Assembly (NCBI GenBank): GCA_900472785.1
Contig: UCJH01000035.1
Coordinates: 1-64,000 of the forward strand
Origin: Hyphomicrobiales bacterium
GTDB lineage: Bacteria > Pseudomonadota > Alphaproteobacteria > Rhizobiales > Rhizobiaceae
Direction: 5' to 3'
DNA: 64,000 nt
Position 1 is the first letter of the stretch; each line of letters begins with the position of its first letter. A model generated the notes under the pieces. That model did not search any database, was not told the origin of the DNA, and worked only from the letters and a program-made list of their open reading frames with translations. Both the position numbers and the translations under genes were made by a program. Below, in pieces: positions 6,260 to 20,601 of this stretch.

Positions 6260-7075
6260 GGCACTAAACTTAACGCTGCCAAGGCAAGATCTAGGATTTG
6301 CGCTTTGGTTTAAGCGGGGCGAAGGCGTGCGATCTGATACCAAGTGTCCATGGCGATTGTTCGCAGCTCGCGATGATCGTTGGATGGGACGTCATTTCGG
6401 GGGATGTGAAAGAGGTTGGCAATCGGATCGTGGATGGAAACAAAACGTTGAAGGTGCCTCGGTGACTTGAAGCGCTTCATGATCCTTTCTCGCCTTCGGG
6501 TCGGCTGATGGGAGTTTTCAGCCCGATTGTTCAAGCCTTTATGCGAGCGATGCTCGACGCTGGGCATGATCTCCCGCTTCGCTGCGTTATAGGATCGAAG
6601 TTTGTCGGTGATCATCACACGCGGCGAACGGCCTTGTCCTTTCAGCAGCTTTCGCATCAAACGCTTGGCAGCTTCGGCATTGAGCCGGCTCTGGACCAGG
6701 ACGTCAAGGACGAAACCCTCCTGATCGACGGCACGCCAGAGCCAATGTTTCTTGCCGGCGATCGTGATCACAACCTCATCAAGGTGCCATTTGTCACCGA
6801 GCCTGCCGGCCGAGCGCCTGCGGATATCATTGGCAAAATGCCGGCCAAACTTCTCCGCCCACAGCCTAACAGTCTGGTGAGAGACGATGATTCCACCGGC
6901 TGCCAGCACATCCTCAACCATGCGCAGACTGAGCGGAAACCGGAAGTAGAGCCACACAGCGTGGGCAATCACATCTGCTGGAAATCGATGGCGGCGATAG
7001 AGCGGATCACGGGCAAATTTGGTCATGCCACCAGATCCCACATTTTGATCGACGCCCGGTTAACATGACAGTGCC
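6260..7075 (-). mobile_element. IS6-family insertion sequence, complete
   Basis: An 816-bp element, the usual size for IS6. The ends are imperfect inverted repeats: GGCACTAAACTTAAC on the left and, read inward from the right, GGCACTGTCATGTTAAC. It contains one transposase gene. The 8 bases outside each end (ACGCAGCC and CTCGTCGA) do not match, so no target duplication remains, as expected after IS6-mediated cointegration or adjacent deletion. Its right end lies 47 bp from the LexA box of the SOS cassette. A degenerate end of a related element sits at 4186-4279. Confidence 0.8.
6310..7026 (-). CDS. IS6-family transposase
   Basis: A 238-residue DDE transposase. The N-terminal MTKFARDPLYRRHRFPADVI is the IS6-family opening. 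Catalytic residues are seen in order: the first Asp in WHLDEVVITI, the second in VMITDKLRSY about 60 residues on, and the Glu in NNRAENSHQPTRRRER. Length and residue spacing are normal, so the enzyme looks intact. The start at 7026 leaves a short leader inside the right inverted repeat; a longer frame to 7041 is possible. It catalyses replicative transposition by cointegrate formation. Confidence 0.9.
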   Translation of the reverse strand: MTKFARDPLYRRHRFPADVIAHAVWLYFRFPLSLRMVEDVLAAGGIIVSHQTVRLWAEKFGRHFANDIRRRSAGRLGDKWHLDEVVITIAGKKHWLWRAVDQEGFVLDVLVQSRLNAEAAKRLMRKLLKGQGRSPRVMITDKLRSYNAAKREIMPSVEHRSHKGLNNRAENSHQPTRRRERIMKRFKSPRHLQRFVSIHDPIANLFHIPRNDVPSNDHRELRTIAMDTWYQIARLRPA

Positions 7076-9344: not shown

Positions 9345-10022
9345 ATGTGCAATCTCTACAATGTGACCACCACCCGTGACGCGGTTCTCCAGTTCACGAA
9401 GGCTTTTAGGGATCGCGCCGGCTGGAACGAAGCGAGCTTCGACGTTTACCCGGGCTATCAGGCACCGATTGTCCGCGTTGCCGAGGACGGGAGCCGAGAG
9501 ATTGCCCGGGCGACCTGGGGCATGCCGTCGCCGCCCGCCAATGTGAAAAACTACGACCCGGGCGTCACCAATATCCGCAATGTAAGTTCGCCACATTGGC
9601 GCCGCTGGCTTGGGCCTACCAGCCGCTGCGTCGTGCCGTTCACGTCTTTTGCCGAGCCTGACCCAGCCAGCAAGATGGAGGGCGGGCGTGTCCCGAACGC
9701 TTGGTTTGCCGGCAATGAAGATCGGCCGCTGATGTTTTTCGCGGGCTTCTGGACGCCCTGGAAAGGCGTGCGGAAGGTCAGGGATGGCGAACAGGAATAC
9801 GAACTCTTCGGATTTCTGACGACCTCCCCCAACGAGATCGTCTCGCCGATTCATCAAAAGGCCATGCCCTCCATCCTGACCACGCCTGAAGAAGTCGAGA
9901 CCTGGCTGACAGCACCGTGGGATGAAGCTCGTCTCCTACAGCGTCCGCTACCGGGCAACATGCTGGTGATCGTGCCGCCGCAGGCCAAACCAAAGCCGGA
10001 CAAGGAAGGTCTGTTGCTTTGA
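9345..10022 (+). CDS. SRAP/YedK-type abasic-site DNA-protein crosslinker
   Basis: A 225-residue SOS-response-associated (SRAP) protein. It begins MCNLYN, so the catalytic Cys2 becomes N-terminal after Met removal; family members use it to form a thiazolidine link to abasic sites in single-stranded DNA. Other conserved pieces are the ARATWGMP segment, VPFTSFAEP with its active-site Glu, and SPIHQKAMP with the active-site His. AGGAGAGG sits four bases before the ATG. It lies between the helicase and dinB and is translationally coupled to the latter through an overlapping stop and start. The function of shielding abasic sites during damage replication fits the SOS context. Confidence 0.9.
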   Translation: MCNLYNVTTTRDAVLQFTKAFRDRAGWNEASFDVYPGYQAPIVRVAEDGSREIARATWGMPSPPANVKNYDPGVTNIRNVSSPHWRRWLGPTSRCVVPFTSFAEPDPASKMEGGRVPNAWFAGNEDRPLMFFAGFWTPWKGVRKVRDGEQEYELFGFLTTSPNEIVSPIHQKAMPSILTTPEEVETWLTAPWDEARLLQRPLPGNMLVIVPPQAKPKPDKEGLLL

Positions 10023-11182
10023 TCACCAGCATAGAGCACGACCAGGGCAGTCAAATGCCTGTTCACCAAATGCCGGATTACCGTCTGGAAACTGACGGCA
10101 TGGGTCGCGTGCAACCCGTGCGCAAAATCATCCATGTGGACATGGACGCATTTTATGCATCGGTCGAGCAGCGAGACAACCCGGAGCTACGTGGGCTACC
10201 ATTGGCGGTCGGAGGATCGGCGGCACGCGGCGTTGTGGCGGCCGCAAGTTACGAGGCCCGTGTCTTCGGCGTGCATTCGGCCATGCCGTCGGTAACCGCC
10301 AAACGCAAGTGCCCGGAGCTGATCTTTGTGCCGCCGCGCTTCGATGTCTACAAGGCGGTATCCCAGCAGATACGCGAAATCTTCGCCGAATATACGCCGC
10401 TGATCGAACCGCTGTCGCTCGATGAGGCCTATCTCGATGTGACCGAGAACTTGAAGGGCATGGAGATCGCCACCGACATCGCGTTGGAAATCCGCGCAAA
10501 GATCAAACAGGTCACCGGTCTCAATGCCTCGGCGGGCATCTCCTACAACAAATTCCTGGCCAAGATGGCGAGCAACCTGAACAAGCCGAACGGCCAGGCC
10601 GTCATCACGCCGAAGAACGGGCCGGGTTTCGTCGAGGCCCTCCCCGTCAAGAAATTCCATGGCGTGGGACCGGCCACCGCCGAACGGATGAAACGGCACG
10701 GCATCGAAACCGGGCTTGATCTCAAAGCGAAGTCGCTCGCCTTCCTTCAGCAGAATTTCGGGAAGTCCGGTCCGTATTTCTACGGCATTGCCCGTGGGGT
10801 CGATGAACGCCGGGTGAGATCCGATCGCATTCGAAAGTCTGTTGGCGCCGAGGACACGTTCGTTGAGGACATCGACGATTTCGATCTGGCCAAAGCCGAG
10901 TTGCGGCCGTTGGCCGAGAAAGTCTGGCGCTATTGCGAAGCGCACGACATCACGGGGAAGACCGTGACTGTCAAAATCAAATATTCGGATTTCAGCCAGG
11001 CGACCCGCAGCAGGACCGTGTCGGGATCCGTGTCAGACATCGACATGGTCCTGGAGAATGCTGAGACCCTGCTCGCCTCGGTGTTCCCGTTCAAACGTCC
11101 GGTGCGGCTCCTCGGGATCACCCTGTCATCGCTCAACACGGAAGTGAGCGGTCAAGAACCGCAACTCGCTCTCGGGCTCTAA
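10019..11182 (+). CDS. dinB: DNA polymerase IV (Y-family translesion polymerase)
   Basis: A Y-family polymerase of up to 387 residues. Seen in order: IIHVDMDAFYASVEQ (first catalytic Asp and steric-gate region), GVVAAASYEARVFGVHSAMP, SLDEAYLDVT (catalytic Asp-Glu), the helix-hairpin-helix FHGVGPATAERM and a little-finger domain. The last residues QLALGL fit the C-terminal beta-clamp-binding motif. The TTG start at 10019 overlaps the SRAP stop and has AAGGAAGG nine bases upstream; an internal ATG at 10055 is an alternative. It performs error-prone bypass of lesions and belongs to the same SOS unit. Confidence 0.9.
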   Translation: MITSIEHDQGSQMPVHQMPDYRLETDGMGRVQPVRKIIHVDMDAFYASVEQRDNPELRGLPLAVGGSAARGVVAAASYEARVFGVHSAMPSVTAKRKCPELIFVPPRFDVYKAVSQQIREIFAEYTPLIEPLSLDEAYLDVTENLKGMEIATDIALEIRAKIKQVTGLNASAGISYNKFLAKMASNLNKPNGQAVITPKNGPGFVEALPVKKFHGVGPATAERMKRHGIETGLDLKAKSLAFLQQNFGKSGPYFYGIARGVDERRVRSDRIRKSVGAEDTFVEDIDDFDLAKAELRPLAEKVWRYCEAHDITGKTVTVKIKYSDFSQATRSRTVSGSVSDIDMVLENAETLLASVFPFKRPVRLLGITLSSLNTEVSGQEPQLALGL

Positions 11183-11194
11183 TGCGACGGCCCT

Positions 11195-11380
11195 GAAAAC
11201 GAAAAAGCCTGCCGCGGGAGGAGGTGCGGCAGGCTTTCCGAAAAGAACCGAACAGTGGCTCAAGAGGAGGAGTGCCGCTGTTCCGACAGACGCCCCTTGG
11301 GAGGAGGAGTGGGCCGTCTGAATTCGAAGCTCTGCGGGAGGAGGTGCATCGCTTCGATGAAACCAAGATACCCATTCTCA
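11195..11380 (-). ncRNA. Alpha-r14-like sRNA with four anti-SD hairpins
   Basis: Read on the minus strand, four successive hairpins each expose CCTCCTCC in the loop. On the plus strand the stems are CGAAGC/GCTTCG (11325-11356), AGACG..CCC/GGGCCGTCT (11288-11319), AACAGTGGC/GCCGCTGTT (11251-11282) and a perfect 11-bp AAGCCTGCCGC/GCGGCAGGCTT (11205-11236). The last is followed by a T-run (TTTTTCGTTTT) and forms the terminator. Loop motifs complementary to Shine-Dalgarno sequences define the rhizobial alpha-r14 (NfeR1-type) trans-acting sRNAs, which block ribosome binding of several mRNAs. The 5' end near 11380 is estimated from an AT-rich -10-like TATTTAAT. Four such hairpins seems one more than I recall for the family. 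Confidence 0.75.
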
Positions 11381-11488
11381 CCGCACATTAAATAGACTTT
11401 GCTGCAGTGCAGCTATGCGAAATATGCACGGCCACCTCTGACGAAAGAAATCTTCAACTCAGGGCTTCGTGGCAGGCCAGATACACAA

Positions 11489-11511
11489 ACGCCCGCGTTA
11501 TCAGCGGGCGT
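11489..11511 (-). terminator. Terminator-like hairpin after the DUF1127 gene
   Basis: ACGCCCGC (11489-11496) pairs perfectly with GCGGGCGT (11504-11511) around a 7-base loop, followed on the minus strand by a short T-rich run (TTTGTGT). It starts 33 bp beyond the DUF1127 stop codon. The weak T-run means it could instead be an mRNA-stabilising stem. Confidence 0.5.
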
Positions 11512-11543: not shown

Positions 11544-11690
11544 TTAGCGAGCGACCGACTGCCGGGCAACGCTTTGAATATCGGCGCGATTGATACCAAG
11601 ATCCTGCAGTTCGCGCGAGCTCATGCGGCCGAGTTCGGTAACGGTCTGACGGTACTTGCGCCAGCTATTGAAAGAGCGTGCTACGTTCAT
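11544..11690 (-). CDS. DUF1127 small protein
   Basis: A 48-residue basic protein, MNVARSFNSWRKYRQTVTEL and onward, with the DUF1127 core WRKYRQTVTELGRMSSRELQ followed by DLGINRADI. Members are abundant in rhizobia and are tied to stress, phosphate and RNA-related phenotypes. The ATG follows AAGGGGATC at good distance; the longer frame to 11798 has no start support. It is separately expressed, with its own hairpin downstream, and lies beside the alpha-r14-like sRNA. Confidence 0.85.
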   Translation of the reverse strand: MNVARSFNSWRKYRQTVTELGRMSSRELQDLGINRADIQSVARQSVAR

Positions 11691-11859: not shown

Positions 11860-12840
11860 TCAGGCCCGAAACCGATCGAAGGCGGTGAGGCGTTTAGTCG
11901 GTGGATCGGCGTCTGGATAGCAGTAGATTTCGCCCCTGAGATAACGGAGCTCATCCTCGAGCGCTTCTTCACCAACCTCGATCCACCAGGACTTGGGTCG
12001 GCCATCGCTTCCGTCGGACCAGCGATAACCTCGCGCCTTCAGATGATCCTTCATGTCGAAGGGACTGTTTTCCGCAAAGATTCGGATACGCGATCTCTGG
12101 CTTGCTTCATAGAGTTCGGCGAAAGCTATGGAAGCAGAGGTATCCACCTCACGGGCCAGGACCTCCAGAAGTGCGAAACAATCATCGACAGCGCGATGGC
12201 CTTCATGAAAATAGCCCGCCTGCCCGATCAGGTATCCGAGCTTCGTGCCCTCATATCCCCGCGACGACCAGTCGATCTCAGAGTTGGAGCAAGCCCAGGC
12301 CTTGCCGGAAAATAGGTGAGAAAATGCCTCACAGAATGGCCGGTCGAAACCGGCATTGTGGGCAATCAGCAGATCGGCAGGTTCGATCAGTGCCTGCAAC
12401 GCAGCCGTATCGATCGACTGCCCGACCACCATGTTGTCGGTTATTCCCGTAAGCCTGGTGATTTCGGAGGGAATGGAAACGCTGGGCTGCTGAAGTCCAC
12501 CATAGATGCCGGTCACGTCACCGATGCTTCCTGTCGCATCGAAGGTGAAAGCGATCACGCCAATCTCGATGATCTCATCCTTGCGCGCATTGAGGCCCGT
12601 GGTCTCGGTGTCGAGAATAATGCCCTTGAGCGGGTATTCCGGACGCGGGAATGGCGCGATCGCGCGCTGCAGAAGTTTCGTGAGGATGCGGTAGCGGCCT
12701 GTCTCCGACAGATGACGGACCATGTCCTCTTCACTCATGGGGACGGCAGGCTGTTCGGGCTTGGCTAATCTGGAAGCGGCACGCGTGACCAAATCGTCGC
12801 GCGGAGCCTGCTCCGAAAACATGTCAAACTGTTCTGCCAT
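11860..12840 (-). CDS. DnaQ-like DEDDh 3'-5' exonuclease
   Basis: A 326-residue protein. An exonuclease domain begins near residue 72: GIILDTETTGL (Asp77, Glu79, Exo I), then RLTGITDNM, LLIAHNAGFDRPF (Exo II Asp) and GHRAVDDC (Exo III His and Asp). This complete DEDDh set marks it as a DNA polymerase III epsilon-like proofreading or repair nuclease. About 70 residues precede the domain and a DNA/RNA-binding-like tail of about 80 residues follows, containing RGYRWSDGSDGRPKSWW. A TTG four codons upstream (12852) could also start it. It is not fused to a polymerase and has no operon partner. Confidence 0.85.
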   Translation of the reverse strand: MAEQFDMFSEQAPRDDLVTRAASRLAKPEQPAVPMSEEDMVRHLSETGRYRILTKLLQRAIAPFPRPEYPLKGIILDTETTGLNARKDEIIEIGVIAFTFDATGSIGDVTGIYGGLQQPSVSIPSEITRLTGITDNMVVGQSIDTAALQALIEPADLLIAHNAGFDRPFCEAFSHLFSGKAWACSNSEIDWSSRGYEGTKLGYLIGQAGYFHEGHRAVDDCFALLEVLAREVDTSASIAFAELYEASQRSRIRIFAENSPFDMKDHLKARGYRWSDGSDGRPKSWWIEVGEEALEDELRYLRGEIYCYPDADPPTKRLTAFDRFRA

Positions 12841-12852
12841 TCCTGTTGTCAA

Positions 12853-14729: not shown

Positions 14730-15686
14730 TTAGCTCCGCTTCTGCGACAGGGCAACGGCCAGGATGATGATGCCGCCGCGTGCGATGAGCTGCTGGGAAA
14801 ATTCCAGCCCCATCAGGATCAACCCGTTGTTGATCATGCCGATCATCAGGGCGCCGACGATGGTGCCGATGATCGTGCCCTTGCCGCCAAACAGGCTGGT
14901 CCCGCCAAGAACGGCAGCGGCGATGACGGACAGTTCGTCCCCCTCGCCGAGTTGGAACCGGCCCGACTGGAGCCGTCCCGCGTAAAGCATGCCGGCAAAG
15001 GCGGCGGCCGTCGAGGAAATGACGAGAACGCGGAACTTGATCGCCTTGGTGTCGATGCCGGAATAGCGCGCCGCCGTTTCGCCGCCGCCGGTCGCGAGAA
15101 CCCGCCGGCCGAAGCCGGTGCGGCGCAGGACGACATGACCGATGGCGCCGAAGACGACCATCCAGAACAACAGGACAGGAATCTTGAAGAGCGAGCCGCC
15201 GCCGAACAGCCAGGAATAGCCGGGGCTGAGGATCGGCACGGCAGCGGTGTTCGAAATCCACATCGCCACGCCCTTGGCGATGCCCATCATCGCCAGCGTC
15301 GTCAGAAACGACGGTATGCCGACGCGTGTCGTCAGCCAGCCGTTGAACATGCCGACGGCAATGCCCGTCGCGAGACCGGCGAAGACCCCGGCCACCGGCC
15401 CGGCCACGGCGATGGCCATGGCCACGGTGACCGTTGCGAGCCCCGCGACCGCGCCGACCGAGAGATCGATCTCTCCGGCCGACAGCACAAAGGTCATGGC
15501 AACCGCCATGACGGCGATCATCGCCGTCTGGCGCACGATGTTGAGCAGGTTGTTGGGGTTGAGAAAGCCCTTGTCGGCGAGCGTCAGCGCGAAGATCACG
15601 AAGATCACCGCAAAGCCGATATAGATGATATATTGCCGCCAGTTGGCCTTGAAGCTTTCAGCGAGCGTTGGATTTGCGGTCGTCAT
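14730..15686 (-). CDS. Sugar ABC transporter permease (RbsC-like)
   Basis: A 318-residue integral membrane protein of the BPD_transp_2 (RbsC/XylH) family with eight to ten hydrophobic segments. Family landmarks are ALTLADKGFLNPNNLLNI near the N-terminus, FVLSAGEIDLSVGAVAGLA, the GLATGIAVGMFNGWL segment and the C-terminal AAAVLGGTSLFGGKGTIIGT loop that contacts the ATPase. It forms the inner-membrane channel for a carbohydrate with the ATPase one base upstream and the binding protein at 18.6 kb. The sugar is not identifiable. Confidence 0.9.
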   Translation of the reverse strand: MTTANPTLAESFKANWRQYIIYIGFAVIFVIFALTLADKGFLNPNNLLNIVRQTAMIAVMAVAMTFVLSAGEIDLSVGAVAGLATVTVAMAIAVAGPVAGVFAGLATGIAVGMFNGWLTTRVGIPSFLTTLAMMGIAKGVAMWISNTAAVPILSPGYSWLFGGGSLFKIPVLLFWMVVFGAIGHVVLRRTGFGRRVLATGGGETAARYSGIDTKAIKFRVLVISSTAAAFAGMLYAGRLQSGRFQLGEGDELSVIAAAVLGGTSLFGGKGTIIGTIVGALMIGMINNGLILMGLEFSQQLIARGGIIILAVALSQKRS

Positions 15687-15687
15687 G

Positions 15688-17292
15688 TCAAACCTTCTCC
15701 CCTTGCTTCAGGGCGTCCTGAATTTCGATCTGCAGGCGTTGCTCGGCCGCCTGAAGACGGTGGGCCGTGTCGTTTGCATCAATGGCCGGATCATCGAGCC
15801 GCTCGCGCGGAATATCGGCAAACATGCGCCCTTCCGACAGGACGACGATGCGGTCGCAGGCCGTCAGCAGTTCGCTCAGTTCCGAGGAAATAAAGACGAT
15901 CGCCTTGCCGGCCGCGGCCAGATCGCGCACCAGCTTGATGATTTCGGATTTCGAACCGATGTCGATGCCGGCGGTGGGTTCGTCGAGCACAAGAATATCC
16001 GGGTCGGTCGCGAGCCATTTGCCGATGACGACCTTCTGCTGGTTGCCACCCGAGAGCGTCGAAACCGCATGGTCGCGGCTGGCGGTCTTCACCGAAAGTC
16101 TCTCGATCATGTGGTCCGTGACGGACCTGACCTTGTCCGCATCAACGAAGCCCGCAGCCGAAATGCTGTCGAGAATCGCAAGCGTCATGTTGGATGCGAC
16201 CGAATGGGCGGGAATGATGCCTTGCGTTGCACGCGCCTCCGGCACCAGTGCTACACCGGCCGCGATCGCATCACCGGGCTTGTGGATCGCCACAAGCTTG
16301 CCGTTGATCAGGATCTGGCCGGATTTTGCCGGCTCGATACCGGCGATCACCCGTGCGAGCGCCGACCGACCGGAGCCGAGCAGGCCCGCAAGGCCGACGA
16401 CCTCGCCGCGATGCACCGCAAAAGATATATTTTCGGGCTTGTACTTGCCCGAGACATTGCGCAGTTCCAGCAGAACCTCGCCCTTGACGGCATCGCCGCG
16501 CGCCACATCGGAAAGCCCCTTGGAGCGCCTGCCGACGATGTGCTCGATCATCGTGTCGATCGGCAGTTCCGACAGAGGCGCCGTGATGACATAGGCCCCG
16601 TCGCGCAGGATGGTCGCCCGGTCGCTGATGCGGGCGATCTCGTCCATCCGGTGCGAGACATAGATGATGGCGACGCCCTTCGCCTTGAGCTTGCGCAGGA
16701 AGGTAAACAGCCGATCGACGTCGCTGACGGCCAGCGCCGTAGACGGCTCGTCGAGCACCAGCACGCGGGCATCCTGCGAGATTGCCTTGACGATTTCGGT
16801 GAGCTGCTTTTGTCCGGCCCCGAGATCGCCGACCAGCGCTTTCGGATCAACCTCGACCTCCAGCATCGAAAACAGTTCGGCCGCGCGCCGCTCCGCCGTC
16901 CGGTCGTCGATCAGACCCAGGCCGCCTTTGGCTTCGCGGGTGAGAAACACGTTCTGCGCTACGGTCAGTGTCGGTATCAGGCTGAGTTCCTGAAAGTTCA
17001 TGGCAATGCCGGCCGCCCGCGCCGCCTCCGGCGTGACGTCCTCCAGCAGTTTGCCGCAGACCATGATCGTGCCGGAATCGGGCTTATGAACACCGTTCAG
17101 CACTTTGAGGATCGTCGATTTTCCCGCGCCGTTGCCGCCCAGCAGGGCATGAACTTCGCCCTGCCGAATATCGAGACTGACGTCGCTCAAAGCCCGCACA
17201 CCGCCAAAGGATTTGGATATCCCTTTCATGCTGACGGCCAAGGGCACGCTTGAAGAATGGGGCATGCTGACGGCTGCGGCTTCGGTGTTCAT
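15688..17292 (-). CDS. Sugar ABC transporter ATPase (RbsA-like, two NBDs)
   Basis: A 534-residue protein with two ABC nucleotide-binding domains. The first has Walker A LGGNGAGKST (51-60), the degenerate signature LGAGQKQLTE, and Walker B VLVLDEPSTAL. The second has a degenerate Walker A GLLGSGRSAL, signature LSGGNQQKVV and Walker B ILVLDEPTAGID. This asymmetry is normal for RbsA/MglA-type sugar importers. The ATG at 17292 overlaps the stop of the preceding oxidoreductase (ATGA), and the stop is one base from the permease start. It powers uptake through the neighbouring permease. Confidence 0.9.
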   Translation of the reverse strand: MNTEAAAVSMPHSSSVPLAVSMKGISKSFGGVRALSDVSLDIRQGEVHALLGGNGAGKSTILKVLNGVHKPDSGTIMVCGKLLEDVTPEAARAAGIAMNFQELSLIPTLTVAQNVFLTREAKGGLGLIDDRTAERRAAELFSMLEVEVDPKALVGDLGAGQKQLTEIVKAISQDARVLVLDEPSTALAVSDVDRLFTFLRKLKAKGVAIIYVSHRMDEIARISDRATILRDGAYVITAPLSELPIDTMIEHIVGRRSKGLSDVARGDAVKGEVLLELRNVSGKYKPENISFAVHRGEVVGLAGLLGSGRSALARVIAGIEPAKSGQILINGKLVAIHKPGDAIAAGVALVPEARATQGIIPAHSVASNMTLAILDSISAAGFVDADKVRSVTDHMIERLSVKTASRDHAVSTLSGGNQQKVVIGKWLATDPDILVLDEPTAGIDIGSKSEIIKLVRDLAAAGKAIVFISSELSELLTACDRIVVLSEGRMFADIPRERLDDPAIDANDTAHRLQAAEQRLQIEIQDALKQGEKV

Positions 17293-18461
17293 CTGCCCAC
17301 TCGCTCCCATGCTCCGGTTTCTCCCGAGCGGATGAGGGCATCCGCGACCAGTTCCGTCAACAGACCGTCATCGAAATTCGGCGACGGCTGCTTTCCGGTC
17401 TTGATCGCCGTGAAGAAGTCGAAGCACTCGACGATCTTGGTCTCGGAATAGCCGATGCCGAGACCTGGGATCGGCCAGAGGCCGTGACCATAGGGGTGCG
17501 CCGGGCCGGTATAGACCGTGCGAAAACCGCGGCTGTCGGCCGGATCGTCGGCAAACATCACCTGCAATTCGTCGCGGCGCTCGTAGTTGAAATGGATCGA
17601 GCCCTTGGTGCCGTGGATTTCCAGCGTGATGAAGTTGTTGCGGCCATAGGCGTTGCGCGTCGCCTCGAGGCTGCCGATGGCGCCGTTTTCAAAACGCAGC
17701 ATGCTGATGACTTCATCATCCACATCCACCTCGCCGCGCTCGACGTCTCCGGAAGCCTTTTCCGATGCACCCAGATTGTCGACGCCGCCCTGCTGCAGGG
17801 GACGGGTCTTGTTGTAGGTGGTGGTGATCGCATTCACCGTCTCGATCGGCCCGACCAGATAATGTGCAAGATCGACCACATGGGTGGCGATATCGCCGAC
17901 CGTGCCGGAACCGGCGATCTTCTTCTGGAAGCGCCAGGACAGCGGACCATCCGGATCGGCGGACCAATCCTGCAGATAGGTGCCGCGAAAATTGAGAATT
18001 TTGCCGATGCGGCCTTCCTCGATGTATTTCTTGGCGAGCGCCACCGCCGGCGTGCGGCGATAGTTGAAGGCAACCATATGGATGACGCCGGCCTTCTTGA
18101 CGGCAGCAGCCATGGCGCGCGCTTCCTCGACCTTGCGGGCAAGCGGCTTTTCGCAGATGATGTGCTTGCCGGCCTCCGCCGCCGCGATGGCGATCTCCGC
18201 GTGGACATTGTTCGGCGTGCAGATATCGATCACGTCGATATCCGGCCGGGCAACGACGGCGCGCCAGTCGCTCGATGCTTCATCGAATCCGTAGCGGTCG
18301 CGGGCGATCTCCGCCATCGCATCCGTCACGTCGACCACGACCTTGCGGTGCGGAATAGCGGGCGCCGGCCAGAAGAACATCGGCATGGAAGCATAGGCCA
18401 TGGCATGCGCCTTGCCCATGAATCCGCCACCGATCATGGCGATGTTCATCACTTTGGTCAT
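17289..18461 (-). CDS. Gfo/Idh/MocA-family NAD(P)-dependent oxidoreductase
   Basis: A 390-residue dehydrogenase. The N-terminal Rossmann motif IAMIGGGFMGKAHAMAY binds NAD(P); then come DVIDICTPNNVHAEIA, the catalytic-Lys motif CEKPLARKVEEA and, further on, GDIATHVVDLAHYLVG in the C-terminal alpha/beta domain. Members oxidise sugars, inositols or their derivatives. It sits inside the transporter operon between the binding-protein and ATPase genes, and a TIM-barrel isomerase gene is upstream, which points to catabolism of an inositol-like or keto-sugar substrate. The precise substrate is unknown. Confidence 0.9.
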   Translation of the reverse strand: MTKVMNIAMIGGGFMGKAHAMAYASMPMFFWPAPAIPHRKVVVDVTDAMAEIARDRYGFDEASSDWRAVVARPDIDVIDICTPNNVHAEIAIAAAEAGKHIICEKPLARKVEEARAMAAAVKKAGVIHMVAFNYRRTPAVALAKKYIEEGRIGKILNFRGTYLQDWSADPDGPLSWRFQKKIAGSGTVGDIATHVVDLAHYLVGPIETVNAITTTYNKTRPLQQGGVDNLGASEKASGDVERGEVDVDDEVISMLRFENGAIGSLEATRNAYGRNNFITLEIHGTKGSIHFNYERRDELQVMFADDPADSRGFRTVYTGPAHPYGHGLWPIPGLGIGYSETKIVECFDFFTAIKTGKQPSPNFDDGLLTELVADALIRSGETGAWERVGR

Positions 18462-18531
18462 CGTCTTTCTCCGTCAATGAAGGGGCGGGCGCTGGCCCGG
18501 TCTGTTCTAAAAGGCTCTCCGGCCTTCAAGG

Positions 18532-18555
18532 GCGGGCGGCGTTTGCGCCGCCCGC
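18532..18555. promoter_or_regulatory. Strong hairpin between binding-protein and oxidoreductase genes
   Basis: GCGGGCGGCG (18532-18541) and CGCCGCCCGC (18546-18555) form a perfect 10-bp stem with a TTTG tetraloop, 28 bp after the binding-protein stop. No T-run follows. Such stems commonly protect the binding-protein mRNA 3' end, so that this subunit is made in excess over the downstream transporter genes. Confidence 0.65.
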
Positions 18556-18582
18556 AAGCATGTCAGTGGTGCCGCGGCAGGC

Positions 18583-19704
18583 TTACTGTCCGAGGCTCGT
18601 CTTTACGTTGGCGGTCGGCTCCGTGTTGTAGACGGCCTTCCATCCCTCGACCAAGGTCTCCTTGGTGACGGGGAGGGCCGGCAGCGCCACGAAAGCCGGC
18701 GCCTGCTTGCCGATGAGGCCGTAACCCGCGAGCATCGCCTCGGTCACGCCCTGCGAATAGGGACGTTGTGCGCCGAGACCCTTGATGAAACCGCCCTGCG
18801 CCATGGAGATCGCGACATTCTCGCCCAGATCGATGGTGGTGATGACGAGATCGTCGCGGCCGGCGGTCCGGGCGGCCGAAATCACACCCTCGGCCGGCAC
18901 GTCCCAGACGGCCCAGATGCCGTTCAGATTGGGGTTGGAGGTTAGCATCGCGCTGGCCGCTTTGTCGGCGTCGCCGGAAAAGTCCGGACCGCCGATGCCC
19001 TGTTCGGCGACGATCTTAATGTCGGGATAATCCGATGCGATCGTCGCCTTGAAAGCCTCGTAGCGCTGCTTGGTCACAAAGAAGTCGGCGGCGTGGAAGA
19101 CGAGACCGATTTCGCCCTTGCCGCCAAGCGCCTTGGCCATCAGATGGGCGGAGGCGACGCCATTGCCGTAATTGTCCGCCGAAACCGAGGAGACGTATTC
19201 CTTGCCGGCAGTGAAGCCTGCCGGAACATTGTCCATGAACACCAGCTTCACACCGGCGTCCGCAGCCGCCTTATAGGCAACGGCGGTTGCAACCGGATCG
19301 GTCGGGATGGAGACGATTATGCTGGGCTTCTGCGCCATGATGGTTTCAAGGTCGGCCACCTGTTTTTCCGGCTTGAAGCCGGCGTCGGTGACGGCGACGA
19401 CCTTGATGCCCATGGCCGCGAACTGCGTCTGCAGTCCGTTGATCTGCGCCTGGCTCCAGTCGTTGCCGCCATAGTGCATGACGATTGCCGCCGTGGCGTT
19501 CATGCCCTTGATCTTGGTCAGTTCCTCATCGGTCAACGTGACCGATGACGCGGCGGCCGGGTCTTCGCCGTTCGGTCCCTTGGACAGAACGGTTTCCTGC
19601 AGCTTGGCAAGAGCCGCGTCTGGGTCGGCAAAGGCCGGTGCGGCGATGGACAGGGTCAACGCAAAAGCCGCGCTGGTTGCAAGCAGGGTTCGTCTCGTGA
19701 TCAT
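18583..19704 (-). CDS. Sugar ABC transporter substrate-binding protein
   Basis: A 373-residue periplasmic binding protein of the Peripla_BP_4 (ribose/galactose-like) class. The signal peptide is clear: MITRRTLLATSAAFALTL, hydrophobic core, then APAFA before the cleavage point. Two Rossmann-like lobes follow, with VMHYGGNDWSQAQINGLQ, IIVSIPTDPVATA and FMDNVPAGF in the first. The ATG at 19704 has GGAGGAGAAG upstream; a longer frame is unsupported. It is the first transporter gene, followed by a stabilising hairpin. It delivers the sugar to the permease/ATPase pair and has a cytosolic paralogue encoded at 22.2 kb. Confidence 0.9.
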   Translation of the reverse strand: MITRRTLLATSAAFALTLSIAAPAFADPDAALAKLQETVLSKGPNGEDPAAASSVTLTDEELTKIKGMNATAAIVMHYGGNDWSQAQINGLQTQFAAMGIKVVAVTDAGFKPEKQVADLETIMAQKPSIIVSIPTDPVATAVAYKAAADAGVKLVFMDNVPAGFTAGKEYVSSVSADNYGNGVASAHLMAKALGGKGEIGLVFHAADFFVTKQRYEAFKATIASDYPDIKIVAEQGIGGPDFSGDADKAASAMLTSNPNLNGIWAVWDVPAEGVISAARTAGRDDLVITTIDLGENVAISMAQGGFIKGLGAQRPYSQGVTEAMLAGYGLIGKQAPAFVALPALPVTKETLVEGWKAVYNTEPTANVKTSLGQ

Positions 19705-19788
19705 GGTTCTTCTCCTCCCAAGAAGTCGAGGCGTCATTGCCTCGAAGATTGCCGGGCCATCAGGCCCATTTTCAGGTCACCCAGGCCG

Positions 19789-20601
19789 TCAGGCCTGTTT
19801 CAGATAATCCATGCTGATGCGCGCGCCTTCGGCGGGATCGGACCAGGCATCGAGTTCGGTGCAGACCCAGCCCTTGAAACCCGTCTCCCGCAGTGCGGCA
19901 AGGATGGGACCGGTCGGCACGTCGCCGCGATCGAGCGGTGTGAAAGCGAAGGGTTCTCTTTGGAAACCCTTCAGGTGAACATAGGAAATACGCGACGCAT
20001 GATCGCGGATGAGCTGTGCCGGATCGCCGCCGGCCGCAGCCAAATGTGCCGTGTCCGGGCAGAAATCGATCGACGTCAGGCCGAAGATCCGGGCCACCGC
20101 GTCCGGCCCTTCGACGATCGTCGAAAGGTGCGGATGATAGTGGGCGCGCAAGCCCCGATCCTCCGCGATCGCCTTGACCGTGTCCAGCGCCGCGCCCAGC
20201 TTCGCATAGTCATCGTCACGGATCCCGTCGAAACGCTTGGCACCTCCGCCCACGACCAGATGCGGCGCACCGAGTTCGGCGGTGCGATCGGCAGCGCGGG
20301 TAACCCGGGCCAACTCCTCCGGCAGGATATCATCGAAGATGAAATTGCCGCCAGCATAGGCCGCAACGAGCGTCAAACCGCTACTGGCAAGCACGTTGCG
20401 CAGATCGGCAGCGTTGTAGTCGAGCAGATTTCCATCGAACAGCTCAACGCCTTCGTATCCTGCCGCGGCAATATCGGCGAAAGCACGGTCCATATCGCCG
20501 AACGTGCGATAGCTGAGCTCCGTGATCGAGGTCACGCCCTGTGCATTGCCGCCGAGCACGCCCCAGCAATTGGCGTGATACGCCAGCTTCCAATCCGACA
20601 T
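19789..20601 (-). CDS. Sugar phosphate isomerase/epimerase (xylose-isomerase-like TIM barrel)
   Basis: A 270-residue AP-endonuclease-2/IolE-like TIM barrel. Landmarks: MDRAFADIAAAGYEGVELFD, LGAPHLVVGGGAKRFDG, RAHYHPHLSTIVEG (metal-binding His), SIDFCPDTAHLAAAGGDP (Asp/His metal site) and a C-terminal WVCTELD Glu. Members isomerise or epimerise sugars, or dehydrate inosose, using a divalent metal. It is the promoter-proximal gene of the operon and faces the ROK regulator. Together with the Gfo/Idh/MocA enzyme it probably makes the first catabolic steps for the imported substrate. Confidence 0.85.
   Translation of the reverse strand: MSDWKLAYHANCWGVLGGNAQGVTSITELSYRTFGDMDRAFADIAAAGYEGVELFDGNLLDYNAADLRNVLASSGLTLVAAYAGGNFIFDDILPEELARVTRAADRTAELGAPHLVVGGGAKRFDGIRDDDYAKLGAALDTVKAIAEDRGLRAHYHPHLSTIVEGPDAVARIFGLTSIDFCPDTAHLAAAGGDPAQLIRDHASRISYVHLKGFQREPFAFTPLDRGDVPTGPILAALRETGFKGWVCTELDAWSDPAEGARISMDYLKQA

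Follow-up and report, generated by a model that had tools for sequence, protein, structure and literature searches.

Do the four hairpins that follow one another on the minus strand of this DNA, with an anti-Shine-Dalgarno (aSD) motif in their loops, form a single small RNA (sRNA), and what could such a repeated motif be used for? The question has been approached by computational analysis of the whole 64-kb stretch, called the window hereafter, and of related loci in other genomes.

Hairpin array and predicted transcript

The four consecutive minus-strand hairpins spotted in the first-pass annotation are borne out by the fold of 11380-11195, in which they lie at about 11357-11200. This minus-strand segment reaches -72.6 kcal/mol, whereas its shuffled versions average -56.96 (z -3.83), and none of 200 shuffles was as good. 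The elements of the predicted RNA are listed below.

11195..11359, minus: four-hairpin alpha-r14 (SmelA099-type) sRNA, about 165 nt predicted (RF02344 and fold; 5' end by homology with SmelA099)
11324..11357, minus: hairpin 1, loop CACCTCCTCCC, additional 5' module not covered by the Rfam match (fold; nearly invariant in 30 aligned loci)
11287..11320, minus: hairpin 2, loop ACTCCTCCTCCCAA (fold; 5 of 9 pairs with compensatory changes on both sides)
11250..11283, minus: hairpin 3, degenerate loop CTCCTCCTCTT (fold; 5 of 10 pairs with compensatory changes on both sides)
11200..11240, minus: hairpin 4, loop CACCTCCTCCC, T-rich tail, probable intrinsic terminator (99.8% of cells paired, 30 loci)

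All four loops had been described as displaying the same motif. This is true for three of them, with exact CCTCCTCC at 11344-11337, 11307-11300 and 11224-11217 (minus strand; loops 1, 2 and 4), but the third loop carries CCTCCTCT; from 11272, it reads CTCCTCCTCTT and has only CTCCTCC in common with the others. The count of exact CCTCCTCC alone is within chance (3 found for 2.23 expected), whereas four CTCCTCC in 150 nt are beyond it, with a maximum of two per window in 300 first-order Markov windows. In the 165-nt predicted transcript, the unpaired probability of CTCCTCC is at least 0.92 in loops 1, 2 and 4, and 0.58-1.0 in loop 3.

The proposal that the last hairpin doubles as a terminator fits its GC-rich 15-pair stem with one bulge and the T-rich tail lying 3' of this stem. 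A simple terminator scanner did not list it, because its loop of 10 exceeds the scanner limit of 8. Hairpin 4 is a plausible predicted intrinsic terminator. The interval 11380-11195 initially delineated does contain the RNA, but starts about 20 nt too far upstream: the 5' end of the homologue maps at about 11359, and 11380-11360 looks like promoter rather than RNA. A single transcript bearing the four loops is the best reading, because published tables give its Sinorhizobium meliloti homologue, SmelA099, as one RNA of 160 nt. An 82-aa minus-strand open reading frame (11133-11381) was rejected as coding, since the RNA that it overlaps is structured and conserved, with compensatory changes. The sRNA gene is well supported by its sequence, and is presumably transcribed here.

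Family assignment

The alpha-r14 family named at the outset was the right one. A covariance search gives Rfam ar14 (RF02344, release 15) with 92.9 bits and an E-value of 1.2e-15, for a gathering score of 58.8. No other match in the 64-kb window reaches its Rfam gathering score, and this one runs from 11326 to 11200 on the minus strand (model positions 1-123 of 123). It spans the three 3' hairpins, hairpin 1 lying outside. The loops of these three hairpins are open, but one reads CCUCCUCU, not CCUCCUCCC, and a fourth hairpin is added. AbcR1 and AbcR2 (alpha-r15) match RF00519, for which the window has no match at gathering score. In the genome of the window, ar14 has seven matches, six of them above the cut-off; when 40 relatives are included, a match is found in 33 of the 41 genomes and is above the cut-off in 26.

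The placement beside NfeR1 stands at the level of the family, but the nearest relative is SmelA099/smrA6, not the three-hairpin NfeR1. NfeR1/SmelC397 and Rfam ar14 share the loop motif and the 3' hairpin with the RNA described here, and NfeR1 has three hairpins instead of four. Judged by its sequence, the RNA belongs to the four-hairpin SmelA099/smrA6 subgroup of the alpha-r14 ('cuckoo') family, a family known from nitrogen-fixing soil bacteria.

The four-hairpin form and its spread

SmelA099/smrA6 (SMa6570), placed by Reinkensmeier et al. (2011) in the four-hairpin group, is reported as a 160-nt sRNA of pSymA (1328175-1328334, minus strand; PMC7143759, PMC2873474). The pSymA stretch at these coordinates is 160 nt long, includes all four loops, and begins at the foot of hairpin 1. 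By blastn, S. meliloti plasmid records match at 81-82% over about 165 nt, the best with an E-value of 3e-36 (pSymA, strain T073). Four aSD hairpins, matching spacing and sequence homology are thus all found here: the motifs are spaced by 35, 37 and 48, compared with 35, 36 and 48 in SmelA099, and hairpins 1 and 4 are near-identical in both. The two loci also share an LsrB-type box at the same distance and a facing dinB-like gene. In contrast, hairpins 2 and 3 differ in sequence, loop 3 is degenerate only here, and the DUF1127 gene found upstream here has no match within 900 nt upstream of SmelA099. No paper assigning a regulator or a target to SmelA099 was found, as far as accessible in the open-licence literature.

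SmelA075 is described with three CCUCCUCCC hairpins and SmelA099 with four (PMC3927594). The same source reports the suggestion that both be placed in one family whose number of modules varies; two-hairpin relatives are mentioned there as well. The view of four loops as unusually multivalent is contradicted by this joint description of three- and four-hairpin forms, which dates from 2011, and by the genus search, where at least 20 of 26 genomes yielded a locus showing this spacing of four motifs. This count used a lenient motif and is a lower bound, because the loci checked in G009, G011 and G020 were DUF1127-side matches. Among the genomes failing the four-motif rule, G006 differs by one base in motif 1, G016 is left with three motifs, apparently through loss of a hairpin, and the fetched loci of G007 failed as well. 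One locus of the latter genome (L063, G007:C7:92554-93155) carries a four-hairpin RNA partly duplicated in tandem, which gives five motifs.

Across the family, a model (R1) derived from 30 loci with four hairpins matches 56 of 61 genomes, of which only the genome of the window and four others reach at least 105 bits. The 30 loci fetched from this family search comprise five with four-motif spacing (own locus included), 24 three-motif chains, and L093, with a 3+1 arrangement. Several related arrangements were also observed. A four-hairpin relative on Rhizobium etli pRetIE4771c (L072, 3255-3520) fails the four-motif rule through its fourth loop, CACCGCCTCC. L009, L010, L016 and L023 are tandem three-hairpin alpha-r14 copies, in which the second copy has an extra CTCCTCC 31-35 nt past its third motif. 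The genome of the window holds a second cassette copy (L006/L065, G000:C33:38703-38931) that appears to be decaying, with three of its four aSD motifs off consensus, an inexact LsrB-type box, and a dinB-like frame that seems broken by eye, the match being of 109 aa only.

Conservation and covariation

In an alignment of 30 loci, 97.8% of the cells are paired and 10 pairs show two-sided changes. None of 500 shuffles scored as high, a test that is inflated by the kinship of the loci. Slid controls gave 36-51% of paired cells, a comparison that favours a structure derived from the same sequences. The two-sided changes are confined to hairpins 2 and 3; hairpins 1 and 4 show none in this alignment, and both hardly vary.

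Promoter region and putative LsrB/VtlR box

Two elements lie upstream of the predicted 5' end.

11406..11418, minus: putative LsrB/VtlR box GCATAGCTGCACT, fitting GCAT-N3-TG-N3-T; extended form CGCATAGCTGCACTGCA at 11419-11403
11365..11370, minus: putative -10 element TATCTT (TATNNT within the examined 20 nt in 26 of 31 loci)

GCAT-N3-TG-N3-T is the reported LsrB/VtlR consensus (PMC8844928, PMC7486931). It is contained in an element found upstream of the four-hairpin loci, which reads TGCATAGCTGCA(C/G)TGCA or a near variant. The exact box is present in 28 of 31 distinct four-hairpin loci, which are related and do not amount to 28 independent events; it always lies 73-77 nt before motif 1, which puts it at about -60 to -48 relative to the mapped start, and is absent in L006, L042 and L074. 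With up to two mismatches, the extended box has four sites in the 5.38-Mb genome, against one for the reversed control. Three of them lie 44-45 bp upstream of the three four-hairpin copies of this genome; since the extended box was derived from the same loci, these matches are partly by construction, and what is informative is that there is just one further site.

A precedent for LsrB acting on an alpha-r14 RNA is NfeR1, reported to be activated by LsrB and repressed by NtrC (PMC10746234). The LsrB site described for NfeR1 is TGCA-N6-GCAT, around -72 to -57. AbcR1 of S. meliloti is likewise described as activated by LsrB/VtlR, with a box at -61 to -49 in PabcR1 (PMC8844928), close to the position of the putative box here. 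As for NfeR1-type promoter features, the LsrB consensus and the -10-like TATCTT were seen, with no clear -35 hexamer, and a consensus promoter scan found no promoter on the minus strand.

The distribution of the box was also considered at other loci of the same genome. A tandem RF00519 (AbcR-type) pair adjoins a LysR-family gene, as in the abcR1/abcR2/lsrB arrangement of S. meliloti; from this synteny, we infer that the LysR gene is LsrB. Neither locus of this pair contains the exact consensus anywhere, a one-mismatch version being seen by eye. The locus of a three-hairpin copy (L002) has no exact consensus; in L001, none lies upstream of the sRNA pair, and a plus-strand match lies downstream. 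A weak ar14 copy (L007) has the exact consensus just upstream of its match. VtlR has also been reported to activate a small-protein gene, atu1667 (PMC7486931). An LsrB-type box was noticed 3' of the tandem three-hairpin pair of L001 (position 2015, G000:C79), starting 117 nt before the match to a DUF1127 gene. We take atu1667 to be of the DUF1127 type.

These upstream elements bear on the extent of the RNA. The Rfam match stops before hairpin 1 and shorter processed forms have been reported for the related SmelA075 (PMC2873474), which would agree with a functional RNA restricted to the canonical three-hairpin ar14, hairpin 1 being either promoter-proximal debris or a separate short RNA. Such a restriction looks unlikely, since hairpin 1 ranks with the best-conserved parts, the published SmelA099 entry is a single RNA of 160 nt starting at the foot of this hairpin, and both the -10-like site and the LsrB-type box lie upstream of it. 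The single four-hairpin transcript is retained in what follows.

Gene neighbourhood

The sRNA is surrounded by the following features.

11544..11690, minus: gene of a 48-aa DUF1127 small protein (Pfam PF06568, 56.7 bits)
11489..11511, minus: weak terminator-like hairpin in the gap between the DUF1127 gene and the sRNA (scan: 1 found for 1.1 expected in shuffles)
10019..11182, plus: dinB-like DNA polymerase gene, convergent with the sRNA (Pfam IMS)
11860..12852, minus: 3'-5' exonuclease gene, upstream neighbour of the DUF1127 gene (NF006615, 457.3 bits; Pfam RNase_T)

The gene order is UvrD-like helicase, SRAP peptidase, DinB, sRNA, DUF1127, 3'-5' exonuclease. Of the 31 four-hairpin loci, 23 have a DUF1127 gene upstream of the sRNA and on its strand; the other eight gave no DUF1127 match over a searched length of up to 900 nt. 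A dinB match oriented towards the sRNA, in some cases a fragment, is present in 18 of the 31 loci; none was found in the remaining 13 within 1400 nt past the last loop. By tblastn, L069 has a dinB match and L071 a short dinB fragment.

The aSD-loop RNAs CcsR1-4 of Rhodobacter sphaeroides ('cuckoo' RNAs, CIN1 locus) also lie beside a DUF1127 gene, ccaF1 (PMC10253847). They are described as having two stem loops each (PMC3927594) and as forming a single RpoH-driven operon (PMC10253847). The CIN1-type DUF1127 gene upstream on the same strand is found here (PF06568 at 11690-11544), but instead of several two-hairpin RNAs 3' of it, the fold reveals a single unit of four hairpins; this unit has a box to itself, and a weak terminator-like hairpin lies between it and the DUF1127 gene. 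A layout that recalls ccaF1-CcsR1-4 was noticed by eye in L034 (1300-1600, G034:C6), with eight aSD-type hairpin motifs in a row directly 3' of a DUF1127-like C-terminus.

The ccaF1-CcsR1-4 precedent (PMC10253847) raises the question of whether the sRNA is co-transcribed with the DUF1127 gene and then cut out by RNase E. The frequent same-strand DUF1127 neighbour would agree with it, and the intervening terminator-like hairpin is at chance level. This hairpin does nevertheless separate the gene from the sRNA, which comes with a conserved box of its own, joined in most loci by a -10-like site, and the array is kept in the eight loci without a DUF1127 match over the up to 900 nt searched. Release from such an operon is thus improbable, and transcription of the four-hairpin RNA from its own promoter is preferred. 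That the hairpins are a mere terminator region of the convergent dinB gene, which ends at 11182 on the plus strand, facing the array as dinB matches do in 18 loci (SmelA099 included), is hardly credible, since the four hairpins are kept in the 13 loci without a dinB match in the 1400 nt past the last loop, the T-rich tail goes with the minus-strand hairpin, not with a plus-strand one, SmelA099 is listed as a discrete 160-nt RNA, and three further aSD hairpins would be left unexplained.

Plasmid relatives

A plasmid of Pararhizobium qamdonense covers 100% of the 4.5-kb region at 88% identity, and at least 80% of this region is found in one place in 8 of 926 matching plasmid records. The shorter sRNA-DUF1127 stretch has matches in 523 of 72,556 plasmid records, and in 231 of these at least 80% of its length is covered, a count of records irrespective of hairpin number. 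A segment of 541 bp is identical between the window and another species of the genus (G005), which suggests a recent transfer. No repC gene was found on the contig of the window, and three RP-C genes lie elsewhere in the genome. An IS240/IS6-type transposase is encoded near the cassette (6310-7041, minus strand).

Predicted targets

Target prediction against Shine-Dalgarno regions had been proposed initially, and was followed here through a few genome pattern searches, narrower than a full prediction. Loop 2 exposes ACUCCUCCUCCCAA. Its 10-nt complement TTGGGAGGAG is found 3-9 nt before an ATG six times in the genome, compared with zero for the reversed control; the same pattern search gave no loop-2 target with a GTG start. 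Four of these six perfect complements precede genes of solute-binding proteins (SBP_bac_1, DctP and two Peripla_BP_4), the other two those of a TPP enzyme and an acyl-CoA dehydrogenase. The numbers are small. One of the predicted targets is in the window.

18586..19704, minus: periplasmic binding protein gene, predicted target, ribosome-binding site TTGGGAGGAG (perfect 10-nt complement of loop 2)

This sugar-type gene (19704-18586) lies about 7 kb from the sRNA and is in a cluster that also encodes a permease and an ABC ATPase. When one stem base is counted in, the duplex between loop 2 and its ribosome-binding site reaches -22.0 kcal/mol, and the start of an ABC ATPase in the window is nearly equal (-21.3). 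With loop bases only, the duplex is at -19.4, second among 289 ATG positions followed by at least 150 codons, internal ones counted; all these energies ignore accessibility. The surrounding sugar-type ABC transporter cluster (14730-20601, minus strand) comprises a permease, an ATPase, an oxidoreductase and the binding protein, whose gene has a GGAGGAG ribosome-binding site. A GGAGGAG site is also seen for the adjoining xylose-isomerase-like gene (20601-19792).

As another target pattern, GGGAGGAGG before an ATG has 7 matches, against 3 for the reversed control, a weak difference, with products judged by eye. The control pattern TAAGGAGAAG has no match and is hence uninformative. Another control, AAAGGAGG before an ATG, has 12 matches, 7 of them with a frame of at least 80 aa and with no binding protein by eye, which are too few for a firm test. 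Strong Shine-Dalgarno sequences may perhaps simply be commoner in binding-protein genes. The predicted targets would mainly be solute-binding proteins of uptake systems, and the three-loop copies could act on the same ones. Both NfeR1 targets named as validated in PMC8844928 are periplasmic binding proteins, and AbcR1 and AbcR2 (alpha-r15, RF00519) are described as aSD-type regulators of uptake genes, like the RNA proposed here.

Proposed mechanism and significance

The locus probably encodes an LsrB-activated and redundant translational repressor of uptake genes, in the form of a trans-acting four-hairpin sRNA of the SmelA099 subgroup, whose transcription here, control by LsrB and targets we infer. 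What the computation shows directly is the match to the family, the four-hairpin fold and its conservation, the place of the box and the neighbouring genes. The LysR-type regulator LsrB/VtlR would recruit RNA polymerase from the box that it binds, about 60 nt before the start. The resulting RNA of about 165 nt would fold into four hairpins and end at the fourth one. Each aSD loop would then pair with the Shine-Dalgarno region of an mRNA, and ribosome binding would be blocked. Repression of this kind would fall mainly on solute-binding proteins of uptake systems, among them the sugar-type one whose gene lies about 7 kb away. By analogy with the three-loop NfeR1, for which redundancy of three identical loops is reported (PMC7143759, PMC8844928), the loops would be redundant copies of one seed. 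The gain brought by a fourth loop may be one of dose, or of tolerance of loop decay, such as that of loop 3 here.

The part played by the DUF1127 protein is more speculative. CcaF1 is reported to help process the CcsR RNAs (PMC10253847), and a similar help in processing the sRNA here stays a guess, because DUF1127 proteins are also reported to act through protein-protein contacts (PMC12501420). It is a tentative and rather doubtful extension that the four-loop aSD sRNA and the DUF1127 gene, often with DinB and the exonuclease, form a plasmid-borne transferable module. The box of the sRNA would plug into the LsrB/VtlR stress circuit of the host chromosome, a new plasmid would at once repress the solute-binding proteins of the host (as well as its own), and the DUF1127 protein would handle the sRNA.

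Far from being a curiosity, the four-loop form is the common state of one alpha-r14 branch, found repeatedly on rhizobial plasmids, many in number. Control by LsrB and solute-binding-protein targets make up a testable proposal for this subgroup, whose S. meliloti member has a sequenced transcript.
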